Origin: an uncultured Hyphomicrobiales bacterium
GTDB taxonomy: Bacteria > Pseudomonadota > Alphaproteobacteria > Rhizobiales > Xanthobacteraceae
Length of the DNA stretch: 64,000 bases
Assembly: GCA_903878085.1 (NCBI GenBank)
Contig: CAIRGJ010000054.1
Span: 1 to 64,000, forward strand
Direction of reading: 5' to 3'
The notes under the pieces are model-generated. The model saw only the letters and a list, made by a program, of their open reading frames with translations, made no database searches and was not told the DNA's origin. The position numbers and the translations under genes are program-made. Below are positions 52,507-55,799 of this stretch, piece by piece. Position 1 is the first letter of the stretch; each line of letters starts with the position of its first letter.

Positions 52507-53493
52507 ATGCGTATGTCGGGTATTTTGTATGCGGTCGGCGCCGTTGCCGCTGTGGCTGGTGTCGTGATGATCGGCTTTGGCATTCCGGTCAATGAATTCA
52601 GCTTTGGAAACACGCTGATTATTTCAGGGGTTACGGCCCTTGTCGGCGGTTTGATCGTCGCCAGCCTGGGTGTGGTGGTGGCGCAGCTGCAACGCCTCGC
52701 CGAAGCCCTGGCGACCCGCTCCCCCGCTCGTCCGCCGCGTCCGCTGGACATGTTTGGCGCCGCGGGCTCGCGCGACATGGCGCCGCCGAGCCGCGTTCCG
52801 TTTCCGTCCAAGCCGAAGCCCGAGACCGGCGCCGCGACGCCGGCCGGTGACCTGGCTGACGAGGGCGCGGCGCAGTCATTCGCACCGGCTTTGCGCAATC
52901 CGGAAGAGTCCGACGTTGCCGTCGAAGACGAAATTTCGCTCTCGCCGCGGCACCCGACCGCCGGCAGCTCAACGCCCAATCGCGACACGATCGAGCGCGC
53001 CAATCGCGACATTACCGACGACGCCAATCGCGACATGACCGAGGGCACCAATCGAGACATGACTGAAGGTGCCAATCGAGACATGACCGAGGGGCATGTT
53101 TTCGGTCATGCCTCGGCGGTCGCGGAACGCCGCCCCGAGCCGATGCTCAATGCCGGCTGGCGTCCGTCGCCGCGTCCGAGCGCGGAGCCCGCGCGCAAGT
53201 CGGCCACCACCTACTTCGACGCGATGTGGCCGGCGGACGGCAGGCCAGCCAAGGACGCCGATAGCCACGTGGCCGAGGCCCCCGTTTCCGAGCCTGCGCC
53301 TCAGGCCGAGCCGGAACGGCCCGCGGCCGTTGAGGAAGAGCCCCAGTCGGTCGCCATCCTGAAATCCGGCGTGGTCGATGGCATGGGCTACACGCTCTAT
53401 GTCGACGGATCGATCGAAGCCGAACTGCCGCAAGGCACGCTGCGTTTCGCCTCGATCAACGAACTGCGCAGCCATCTGGAAAAGCACCCATAG
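52507..53493 (+). CDS. Membrane protein with repeat-bearing disordered middle
   Basis: The 328-residue protein has two N-terminal membrane segments (about 5-25 and 37-60). A long charged, proline-rich region contains five copies of an eight-residue repeat (158-197, NRDMTEGA type). A short C-terminal domain reads SGVVDGMGYTLYVDGSIEAE and FASINELRSHLEKHP. The layout resembles uncharacterised proteins of Bradyrhizobium relatives. GAGG lies five bases before ATG 52507. The end domain would face the cytoplasm if both membrane segments insert as a hairpin. Confidence 0.75.
   Translation: MRMSGILYAVGAVAAVAGVVMIGFGIPVNEFSFGNTLIISGVTALVGGLIVASLGVVVAQLQRLAEALATRSPARPPRPLDMFGAAGSRDMAPPSRVPFPSKPKPETGAATPAGDLADEGAAQSFAPALRNPEESDVAVEDEISLSPRHPTAGSSTPNRDTIERANRDITDDANRDMTEGTNRDMTEGANRDMTEGHVFGHASAVAERRPEPMLNAGWRPSPRPSAEPARKSATTYFDAMWPADGRPAKDADSHVAEAPVSEPAPQAEPERPAAVEEEPQSVAILKSGVVDGMGYTLYVDGSIEAELPQGTLRFASINELRSHLEKHP
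52978..53097 (+). repeat. Five 24-base units inside a coding region
   Basis: Units beginning aatcg at 52978, 53002, 53026, 53050 and 53074 encode NRDTIERA, NRDITDDA, NRDMTEGT, NRDMTEGA and NRDMTEGH. The last three units are nearly identical at DNA level, suggesting recent expansion of the number of copies. Confidence 0.92.
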
Positions 53494-53679: not shown

Positions 53680-54099
53680 ATGATCGACACTCCGGCCACC
53701 GGAAATTACATTGAGCTGACCGCGGAAATCGTCTCCGCTTATGTCAGTAATAACACCGTTCCCGCCAGCGAGATCCCGAGCCTGATCAGCCAGATCCATG
53801 CCGCCTTGTCGCGGGTTTCGGGCAAATCCGGCGATGCGCCGGCCGAGCAGCTCAAACCCGCGGCGTCGGTGAAGAAATCGGTGACGCCGGAACACATCGT
53901 CTGTCTCGAGGACGGCAAAAAATTCAAGTCGCTCAAGCGCCATCTGCGCACCCAGTACAACATGACGCCCGAGCAATACCGCGAGAAGTGGGGCCTCGGC
54001 GCCGACTACCCGATGGTGGCGCCGAATTACGCCGCCGCCCGCTCGCAATTGGCCAAGCAGATGGGGCTCGGCCAGCAGCGCCGCCGCCGCGCCAAGTAG
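53680..54099 (+). CDS. mucR: MucR/Ros family transcriptional regulator
   Basis: The 139-residue zinc-finger-type regulator has an N-terminal oligomerisation region ([20 protein letters not shown]) and the DNA-binding part [20 protein letters not shown] with [12 protein letters not shown]. The metal ligands are Cys75, Asp78 and His88, while the place of the second His is taken by Gln92-Tyr93. Members bind AT-rich, T-A rich DNA and control surface polysaccharide, motility and cell cycle genes. The AT-rich 186 bases upstream may be its own target. It is followed by the DnaA-like operon. Confidence 0.93.
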
Positions 54100-54264
54100 G
54101 CAAGGCAGCAAGCACGACACGCTTTGATCGTGGGTCAGTCGGATCCCGTCGACGCGGCCTCGCCGTTGCGGGCGACTCACCATTTTGGACGCGAGTCCTA
54201 GAGCCGCGTGCCTTCGGCCACGCCGACGTTTAAAATCATCAGTAAAACCAGTAATTTAATTGTA

Positions 54265-54281
54265 GGATAAAAAACTTATCC
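54265..54281. promoter_or_regulatory. Inverted pair of DnaA-box cores
   Basis: GGATAA (54265-54270), AAAAC, TTATCC (54276-54281) forms a perfect six-base inverted repeat. Each arm is the TTATCC core of a DnaA box, one on each strand. It lies 56 bases before the start of a gene whose product is a lone DnaA domain IV, in an AT-rich region, so an autoregulatory operator is a reasonable proposal. Confidence 0.5.
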
Positions 54282-54337
54282 CCGCGGGCTAGAAATCGGC
54301 GATGATCTGGCAAATAATCCTACCAAGGAGATTGCCG

Positions 54338-54751
54338 ATGCAGCTCGCCGAAGCCGCCCCTGACAAGCAACGCTTTCGGCGCCGGCCGCCACGAAACGAC
54401 CTCGCCAGAGTCTGCTGGCTGGTGGAGGCCGCGACCGCGGCGGCCTTTGCGGTTGCGGTCGACAAGGTGAGGGCGCCGTCGCGGGGGTCCGCCACCGTCG
54501 CCTTCGCACGGCAGAGCGCGATGTATCTCGCCCATGTCGTGTTGCGGTTGGATTTCAAGTCCACCGGCCGGCTGTTCCGTCGCGACCGCACCACCGCCGC
54601 GCATGCCTGCCGGATCGTCGAACAGCGCCGCGACGACCCCGCCATCGACCGCCTGCTCGACACGCTCGAAAGCATCTGTGTCGATCTGGCGCGCGGCATC
54701 CTGGAGGCGCCGCAGGCGCCGCCGCAAGTGCGGGGCGAGGTGCGGCGATGA
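54338..54751 (+). CDS. Orphan DnaA domain IV (DNA-binding) protein
   Basis: The 137-residue protein consists almost only of the DnaA C-terminal DNA-binding domain: VAFARQSAMYLAHVV (54-68) matches the R399 helix, and RRDRTTAAHACRIVEQRRDD (81-100) matches the DnaA signature GGRDHTTVLHA. There is no AAA+ ATPase domain. The signature His that reads the box is Arg84 here. AAGGAG seven bases upstream fixes ATG 54338; the frame start at 54302 lacks support. It overlaps the DUF6456 gene by four bases. It probably binds DnaA-box-like DNA; competition with DnaA or plain gene regulation are both possible. Confidence 0.85.
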   Translation: MQLAEAAPDKQRFRRRPPRNDLARVCWLVEAATAAAFAVAVDKVRAPSRGSATVAFARQSAMYLAHVVLRLDFKSTGRLFRRDRTTAAHACRIVEQRRDDPAIDRLLDTLESICVDLARGILEAPQAPPQVRGEVRR

Positions 54752-55362
54752 GCGGCAAGATTAGAAAGCACGCGGCGCGGCCGCCTGAAAGCCAGCAGCC
54801 AGCCATCAATGAATTTCGTGGTCAGCACCTCGCTCTGGCGCAGCGCCAGATCGCGACCGAAAGCGGCTCCGCCAACGTCACCATCGACGACGCGGAAAGT
54901 CCGTTGGCCTGGCTGGCGCGAAGGCGCGGCCGCGACGGGCGGCCCTTGATCGAACCGCACCAATTGCAGGCGGGCGAACGGCTGCGCGCCGATTTCACCC
55001 GGGCCGATCTGATGCCGCGCACCACGTCGAACTGGGCCAGCCCGATCTCCTCGGACCGCGGCGGCGGGCGCGCCGGCACTTTTACCGAGACGATGATCGC
55101 GTCGCGCCAGCGCGTGCGCCAGGCGCTCGATGCGGCCGGTCCGGAATTTTCCGGCTTGCTGGTCGATGTCTGCTGTTTCCTCAAAGGGCTCGAAGGCATC
55201 GAACGCGAGCGCGCTTGGCCGACGCGGTCGGCCAAGATCGTCCTGCAACTCGCATTGGATCGGTTGGCTCGCCATTACGGCTACGCCGCCAAGGCCACGG
55301 GCCGGGGGCATGCGCCGGTGCGCACCTGGCTCGCCGAGGGTGCGGCTTTTATTGTCGAATGA
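54748..55362 (+). CDS. DUF6456 protein
   Basis: The 204-residue protein has a variable N-terminal half with a basic stretch (LAWLARRRGRDGRPLIEPHQ). The conserved C-terminal half begins at AGERLRADFTRADLMPRTT and includes LLVDVCCFLKGLEGIERE and the helical ending SAKIVLQLALDRLARHYGY. This is the DUF6456 family, probably helix-turn-helix and of unknown role. The ATG overlaps the DnaA-like stop, so the two products are likely made together. It converges on sufE with eight bases between. Confidence 0.85.
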   Translation: MSGKIRKHAARPPESQQPAINEFRGQHLALAQRQIATESGSANVTIDDAESPLAWLARRRGRDGRPLIEPHQLQAGERLRADFTRADLMPRTTSNWASPISSDRGGGRAGTFTETMIASRQRVRQALDAAGPEFSGLLVDVCCFLKGLEGIERERAWPTRSAKIVLQLALDRLARHYGYAAKATGRGHAPVRTWLAEGAAFIVE

Positions 55363-55370
55363 CGGGGTAT

Positions 55371-55799
55371 TTACGCCGCGTCGGCGAGTGCGGCTTCGGC
55401 GCGGACCCGCTCGACCATCGAGCGCAGCCCATTCGAGCGCTGCGGCGTGAGGCCGTCGCGCAAGCGGATGCGTTCGAACAGCTCCAGCGCGTCGGTCGCC
55501 AGAATCTCCCGTGCGGTCTTGCCCGAATAAAGCGCCAATAAAATCGCGACCAGGCCGCGCACGATATGCGCATCGCTGTCGCCCTCGAACGTCAGCACAG
55601 GCCCGCCGGCGCCGTCCGGAGTGACATGCGTGACCAGCCAGACCTGACTGGCGCAGCCTTGCACCTTGTTGGCATCGGTGTGCGCGCTGTCCGGCAACGG
55701 CGGCAGAGTGCGGCCGAGTTCGATGACATAGCGATAGCGATCATCCCACTCGTCGAGCAGGGCGAAATTCTCGATGATGTCGTCGATCGATATAGCCAT
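55371..55799 (-). CDS. sufE: SufE family sulfur acceptor
   Basis: The 142-residue protein accepts sulfane sulfur from a cysteine desulfurase for iron-sulfur cluster assembly. Cys49 in KVQGCASQVWLV is the acceptor residue. The fold continues with DSDAHIVRGLVAILLALYSG. No other suf gene is in the window. A long inverted repeat lies 16 bases upstream of its start. Confidence 0.93.
   Translation of the reverse strand: MAISIDDIIENFALLDEWDDRYRYVIELGRTLPPLPDSAHTDANKVQGCASQVWLVTHVTPDGAGGPVLTFEGDSDAHIVRGLVAILLALYSGKTAREILATDALELFERIRLRDGLTPQRSNGLRSMVERVRAEAALADAA

Follow-up and report, generated by a model that had tools for sequence, protein, structure and literature searches.

A probable gafYZ operon with a predicted repressor operator in a Hyphomicrobiales genome that seems to have lost its gene transfer agent

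Positions 54338-55362 of the window, as we denote the whole 64,000-nucleotide stretch of DNA from an uncultured Hyphomicrobiales bacterium that was analysed here, very probably constitute a gafYZ operon, that is, the split, two-gene form of GafA, which directly activates gene transfer agents (GTAs), phage-like particles that move host DNA from cell to cell. This high confidence is attached to the explanation as a whole, in which the pair is gafYZ, a RogA-type protein silences it, the operator is present in a diverged form, and the GTA genes are missing or cut. A preliminary description of this DNA knew of no described function for the pair; GafY-GafZ, a known system that activates GTAs and is here found in a known place, provides one. 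What is new, by computation only, is an operator that is conserved across Hyphomicrobiales and recurs on a conserved GTA promoter, along with a genome in which the activator pair is kept and the tested GTA genes are missing or cut. In place of the wrong, if plausible, idea of an additional protein that reads DnaA boxes, the analysis offers testable GTA biology, and it yields a predicted gafYZ operator across Hyphomicrobiales and a predicted GTA promoter for the window's family, as well as natural cases in which the activator, the co-activator and the GTA cluster are no longer found together. With the operator and the promoter defined, it would be easier to learn what induces these GTAs.

The gafYZ locus and its published counterparts

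The genes and the promoter-like element of the locus are as follows (coordinates in the window).

mucR, 53680..54099, + strand: Ros/MucR-type regulator (Pfam ROS_MUCR, E 4e-54), a conserved neighbour with no predicted role
promoter-like hexamers TAGAAA-17-AATAAT, 54290..54318, + strand: a consensus match only
gafY, 54338..54751, + strand: ATG start, 137 aa, DnaA domain IV-like DNA-binding protein
gafZ, 54748..55362, + strand: 204 aa, DUF6456 protein, corresponding to the C-terminal half of GafA
sufE, 55371..55799, - strand: Pfam SufE (E 3.9e-46), a conserved neighbour to which no role is assigned

Both reading frames of the pair are open, gafY adjoins gafZ upstream on the same strand, and the two genes overlap by the 4 bp ATGA. 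The preliminary description, a protein of 137 aa with little besides DnaA domain IV, encoded behind mucR and overlapping a DUF6456 gene by 4 bp, is confirmed in all these points. The promoter-like hexamers were found once, compared with a mean of 0.2 in 50 shuffles. At 52507-53493, the window contains a gene for a hypothetical protein with an internal tandem repeat, with CCAATCGCGACATGAC-like units near 53000-53090.

In the parts of the published accounts available to us, the literature on DUF6456 concerns GTAs, GafY and GafZ are each described as homologous to one half of GafA (PMC11150451, PMC9632790), and gafA homologues are reported in 196 of the 208 genomes of one GTA study (PMC9765227). 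In most cases, a small gene for a DnaA-like protein stands before the Hyphomicrobiales gafA, sufE lies on the downstream side, and mucR or a different HTH gene on the upstream side; the order mucR, DnaA-like gene, gafA, sufE, identical to that in the window, was published in 2022 together with "occasional exceptions" that have no DnaA-like gene, and the available text, supplement aside, describes neither an operator nor a GTA promoter for this arrangement (PMC9638019, Sherlock and Fogg 2022). Like Caulobacter crescentus GafY-GafZ (CCNA_01111-01112), the window's pair is a two-gene operon for a DnaA domain IV protein followed by a GafA-C-terminal protein; unlike the Caulobacter pair, it sits behind mucR and before sufE, and the tested GTA genes are missing or cut. 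Rhodobacter capsulatus GafA, in the accessible part of its description a GTA activator with a DnaA-like N-terminal DNA-binding domain and a DUF6456-type C-terminal part, is a single fused protein, whereas the window has two overlapping genes.

In Caulobacter, again according to the sections available, GafY binds promoters and interacts with RpoD, GafZ is an antiterminator with an element of its own at the GTA promoter, between -35 and -10 (PMC11150451), and RogA represses gafYZ (PMC9632790). By analogy, the window's GafY would attach to promoter DNA and bring in sigma-70 RNA polymerase, on which GafZ would load at a GTA promoter, allowing transcription to continue past terminators. A RogA-type (cI/LexA-like) repressor would keep gafYZ silent through a palindromic operator that covers the promoter, and the inverted repeat in the window would be this operator in a diverged form. 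We infer that the pair may be active; with the tested GTA genes missing or cut, it may have only leftover GTA-type promoters as targets.

GafY and GafZ

GafY matches Pfam Bac_DnaA_C with E 5.5e-12 (46 bits; cut-off, 31.5), so that the significant match proposed as a check of the 137-residue protein was obtained, and apart from this domain it has no Pfam match at E 1 and no AAA+ domain. Its AlphaFold model has a mean pLDDT of 89.5, and DnaA entries fill the first 12 ranks of its Foldseek matches, with the DNA-binding domains 3pvp and 1j1v at TMt 0.83 and 0.81, respectively; in a phmmer search against the PDB, the matches below E 0.001 are DnaA proteins. These results support the suggested DnaA-type DNA-binding domain without ATPase, and this DnaA domain IV without AAA+ is the make-up of the N-terminal half of GafA. 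GafY shares with DnaA the fold and most of the recognition helix, including the aligned D and T-T residues, and differs from it in the lack of the AAA+ domain and in an arginine (R84) that replaces the recognition-helix histidine, a residue that contacts bases in DnaA, in at least 90% of 36 GafY rows. At all 8 invariant columns of this 36-row alignment, which includes it, the window's GafY has the expected residue.

GafZ matches DUF6456, the domain that marks this protein, with E 9.2e-49. When its fold was compared with the PDB by Foldseek with a view to a sigma-like helix-turn-helix, nothing was matched at E 0.001, and a sigma/anti-sigma complex appeared only at rank 48 with a non-significant E of 3.7. 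Rough dN/dS estimates for GafZ are 0.125 in comparison with the relative L078 (dS 0.87) and 0.135 with L077 (dS 1.07).

Conservation of the pair and its link with GTA genes

We collected 110 gafZ loci, 30 from a genome search and 80 named ones (the best 80 of 97 found); omission of L085, where the upstream sequence is too short, left 109 upstream regions in the motif set. The duplicate pairs L016/L092 and L027/L086 were merged for the split motif discovery, the GafZ tree and the overlap count, and were left in for the two 110-locus counts given next, the 109-region motif run, the held-out operator scoring and the upstream-region counts. The family set of 42 loci consists of the window, 29 family genomes and 12 hand-chosen named near relatives.

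The pair is conserved: gafY lies upstream of gafZ in 88 of the 110 loci and mucR is present in 86 (both counts with the best 80 of 97 named loci), in agreement with the proposal that DUF6456 is a conserved partner of the DnaA-like protein. The in-frame 4-base overlap is likewise conserved in relatives, being found in 53 of the 87 gafY-bearing loci (one duplicate removed; best 80 of 97 named included).

Among 119 family genomes, DUF6456 is matched in 90, strongly in 83 (E 2e-16 or better, a cut of our own; 3 of the 83 are short fragments), and GTA_TIM in 70. A strong DUF6456 match and GTA_TIM occur together in 69 of these genomes, a strong DUF6456 match without GTA_TIM in 14, and GTA_TIM without a strong DUF6456 in 1 (Fisher p 1e-17, for genomes that are related and not independent). 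Bac_DnaA_C is matched only once in 18 of the 69 genomes with gafZ and GTA_TIM, which therefore have no gafY detectable by Pfam. Three genomes of the window's genus (G034, G070 and G091) contain gafZ and GTA_TIM but lack both a second Bac_DnaA_C match and a gafY in the mucR-gafZ interval; a fourth, G110, has gafZ without GTA_TIM and without a second Bac_DnaA_C, and the absence of GTA_TIM may be an assembly gap because a full TerL lies near the contig edge. In the GafZ tree, the window's gafZ is nested among gafY-lacking relatives (one of these, L078, was scored as gafY-less and is cut by a contig end), a topology that both repeated loss and regain of gafY fit.

A conserved palindrome upstream of gafYZ

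Three sites of no assigned strand lie upstream of gafY.

inverted repeat GGATAA-AAAAC-TTATCC (GGATAAAAAACTTATCC), 54265..54281: overlaps operator 1
predicted repressor operator 1, RogA-type (GTAGGATAAAAAACTTAT), 54262..54279: best palindrome match in the window
predicted operator 2, weak (TCTGGCAAATAATCCTAC), 54306..54323: over the predicted -10

The inverted repeat is present as first described and is the sole exact GGATAA-N5-TTATCC in the 4.41-Mb genome; with up to 2 mismatches, this pattern occurs at 2 places in the window, against 0.55 expected. The reading of the repeat as a conserved pair of DnaA boxes was rejected: GGATAA-N3..8-TTATCC is found in 1 of the 109 gafYZ or gafZ upstream regions (best 80 of 97 named included), namely, the window's own. 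Motif discovery on these 109 regions (with the same best 80 of 97) returned a palindrome, ATAGGAATATATTCCTAT, which emerged identically from 40 family and 67 non-family regions in separate runs with random starts. The core of this palindrome, found de novo, is GGAA-N4-TTCC, matching the inverted repeat reported, in the available part of the source, to occur twice in the RogA-bound promoter region of Caulobacter gafYZ (PMC9632790).

A matrix trained on the 67 non-family loci scores at least 10 bits in 31 of the 42 held-out family regions, compared with 0.24% of 840 shuffles; the remaining 11 regions score below 10 bits. Operator 1 reaches 11.8 bits with this matrix and 18.8 bits with a family matrix from which the window's genome was excluded, and it is the highest of the 3 places with at least 8 bits on both strands of the 88-kb contig. 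It covers most of the inverted repeat; this copy has diverged and fits GGAA-N4-TTCC in part, whereas the consensus of the window's relatives fits it. Operator 2 scores 9.2 bits with the family matrix and 1.8 bits with the non-family matrix.

The operator also occurs where gafY does not. Twelve of the 17 held-out family loci that lack gafY directly upstream score at least 10 bits (one duplicate pair included), among them L003, L006, L009 and L011, which represent all four same-genus genomes without a second Bac_DnaA_C; with the training loci included, the operator is found in 15 of the 22 loci without gafY and in 77 of the 87 with it (best 80 of 97 named included). Because the palindrome is conserved, also without gafY, and the TTATCC pair is confined to one region, the repeat at 54265-54281 is, judging from these sequences, best read as a putative repressor site rather than as a DnaA-box pair.

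Candidate repressor

The window's genome encodes two S24 proteins, one of which is LexA in our reading. The RogA candidate is a protein of 209 aa (L188) that matches Peptidase_S24 with E 8.4e-26 and no HTH family at E 0.01; as we read it, it carries Ser and Lys at the expected S24 dyad, unlike Caulobacter RogA, which is said in the text available to us to be without key catalytic residues (PMC9632790). Relatives of this protein are present in 118 of the 119 family genomes (6 of them weak), including genomes without gafZ, so that it is not GTA-specific. We infer that a RogA-type protein reads the predicted gafYZ operator; by analogy, the reader could be another XRE protein, since several of these, namely, CdxA, CdxB, RtrA and RtrB, also bind or repress gafYZ in Caulobacter, according to the accessible parts of the reports (PMC10688885, PMC13236601).

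GTA promoters of the family

Upstream of GTA-type terminase genes, TTGACA[G/A]CG is found in 20 of the 30 fetched family loci. The consensus of 42 GTA promoters is TTGACAGCGTgaCGCTgctcngcTAggnttngggCAtgCTCCAcAatTGcG; they were picked by a pattern of -35 and spacer, with an additional TA and CTCC-like filter for those of the genus set, so that these positions are biased. Besides the operator on the -35, the promoter features include a conserved start region, CATGCTCCACANTTGCG, and, within the spacer, the inverted repeat AGCG-TGA-CGCT. The spacer repeat resembles a GafZ site and lies between -35 and -10, the place of the Caulobacter GafZ element in the available text (PMC11150451). The gafYZ operator matrix scores at least 10 bits in 14 of the 23 GTA promoter regions (20 from the family and 3 from the window's genome), compared with 0.43% of 1150 shuffles, and 12 of these 14 sites have their centre 5 or 6 bases before the -35; in the window's genome, the three GTA promoter copies score below 2 bits. 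Many family GTA promoters thus have the consensus -35 TTGACA with the operator on top, whereas the -35 of Caulobacter PgtaT is AATCAT, with GafY acting far upstream of the core promoter, in the part of the account available (PMC11150451).

The pattern TTGACANCGNNNCGCT matches 19 of 20 same-genus genomes; single matches mean little because a reversed control matches 13 of the 20. Its matches in the window's genome are the three GTA-type copies and three others, one of which was inspected (L232) and is unlike them.

A single cI/LexA-like repressor might, in this branch of Hyphomicrobiales, act on both the gafYZ and the GTA promoters, with direct repression and antitermination by GafZ having taken the place of activation by GafY; we offer this as a tentative scenario, with the balance tipped somewhat against it. 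Under such dual repression, GafY would be dispensable (18 of the 69 genomes with gafZ and GTA_TIM have no second DnaA-like match), and the circuit could outlive the GTA through other targets, for example, the HTH gene at 70.2 kb of the window's contig. Direct repressor action on the GTA promoter would be new in comparison with Caulobacter because RogA is enriched there only at gafYZ and CCNA_02002, in the text available (PMC9632790). The accessible literature on GafY/GafZ, RogA, GafA, MucR and GTAs, supplements aside, does not describe a GTA promoter with an operator in Hyphomicrobiales. A strong GTA promoter as the cause of gafY loss was rejected, given that the promoter is found in genomes with and without gafY.

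In the loci L189-L192, a GC-rich hairpin followed by a T run, terminator-like by eye, directly precedes TerS; the promoter is separated from it by a small membrane-protein-like frame. This hairpin is a possible reason for the need for antitermination.

GTA remnants in the window's genome

The window's genome (4.41 Mb in 64 contigs, 99.29% complete) seems to have lost its GTA yet kept gafY, gafZ and three GTA-type promoters. GTA_TIM is absent from this genome, with the Caulobacter positive control matched; the capsid search was empty, a result that is weak alone as the set held no known-positive genome; and TerL is represented by fragments only, one cut after Walker A and another on a different contig. 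An intact GTA cluster elsewhere in the genome was not found with these three markers, so that in place of the RcGTA-type cluster that GafYZ would activate there are only a TerS-like gene and TerL fragments. The former (223 aa, with weak HTH matches only and 32% identity to its G034 counterpart) lies with the three GTA promoter copies and a cut TerL at 83.3-86.4 kb of the window's contig C54 (88,145 bp). TerL is cut 1.8 kb from the contig end, and given this position of the GTA remnant, an assembly error is possible. Among 8 near-relative genomes, for which completeness is not given, GTA_TIM is found in 2 (L081 and L084) and not in L077 or L078; L079 was left out. Without a GTA cluster, the gafYZ pair may be decaying.

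The promoter copies, each of 90 nt, lie at 83286-84973 of C54 (L063 3258-5019), upstream of the TerS-like gene, with spacings of 894 and 778. Behind the cut TerL, at 86.5-87.7 kb (L063 6553-7652), there is a MafB19-deaminase-like gene (E 2.2e-4, not reaching the Pfam cut-off) accompanied by an Imm1 immunity gene (E 4.9e-6). At 70.1-70.9 kb of the same contig (L062 10122-10938), a GTA-type promoter with an 11.4-bit operator stands before a 252-aa open HTH frame, itself upstream of an MFS transporter frame; from its sequence context, this HTH gene is a possible remaining target. GTA induction in Caulobacter also upregulates a homeodomain-related gene, in the available part of the report (PMC9632790).

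Alternative explanations

TTATCC is the core of the DnaA box, and GafY itself, or DnaA, might read the palindrome at 54262-54281, resulting in autoregulation. The repeat holds this core, which occurs on either strand in 59 of the 109 upstream regions (best 80 of 97 named included), and D and T-T from the recognition helix of DnaA are retained in GafY. Self-regulation, as proposed in the preliminary description, gains support by analogy from the ChIP signal of Caulobacter GafY at gafYZ itself, reported in the accessible text (PMC9632790); however, Caulobacter GafY works far upstream of the PgtaT core promoter, as far as the available account goes (PMC11150451). Full DnaA boxes, TTATNCACA, are found in 6 of the 109 regions (again with the best 80 of 97 named), the histidine of the DnaA helix is an arginine in GafY, and loci without gafY keep the operator, so that GafY is disfavoured as its reader. 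We regard reading by GafY or DnaA as improbable and prefer a repressor site. Less probable still is a role of GafY in replication, as a modulator of the HdaB type that would act on DnaA or on its inactivation (RIDA). In 2020, Frandi and Collier reportedly described CCNA_01111 of Caulobacter as HdaB, a name initially given after effects of its overexpression on replication. Later authors, in the text available, attribute these effects to GTA production and propose no oriC regulation via DnaA (PMC9632790), and in the same-genus G034, G070, G091 and G110, the single Bac_DnaA_C match is DnaA, so gafY is dispensable for replication in close relatives.

The preferred explanation, a gafYZ operon under a RogA-type repressor, also has to be weighed against the pair being a dead relic that does nothing after the loss of the GTA, which we consider unlikely, if deserving of serious weight. 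The failure to find GTA_TIM and the capsid, the reduction of TerL to fragments, the degenerate operator 2, and the scores below 2 bits in the three GTA promoter copies are consistent with such a relic. It is, however, at odds with the open state of both frames, the GafZ dN/dS of 0.125-0.135 relative to L078 and L077 (genomes also without a GTA_TIM match, completeness not given), the agreement of GafY with all 8 invariant columns, and the GTA-type promoter with a good operator at 70.1 kb before an open HTH frame.

In another set of genomes, G066, G088 and G107, which belong to one genus of the family, gafZ is kept, GTA_TIM is absent, and the TerL match is an N-terminal fragment only. These genomes perhaps represent a second, separate decay of the GTA in which the regulator was kept.
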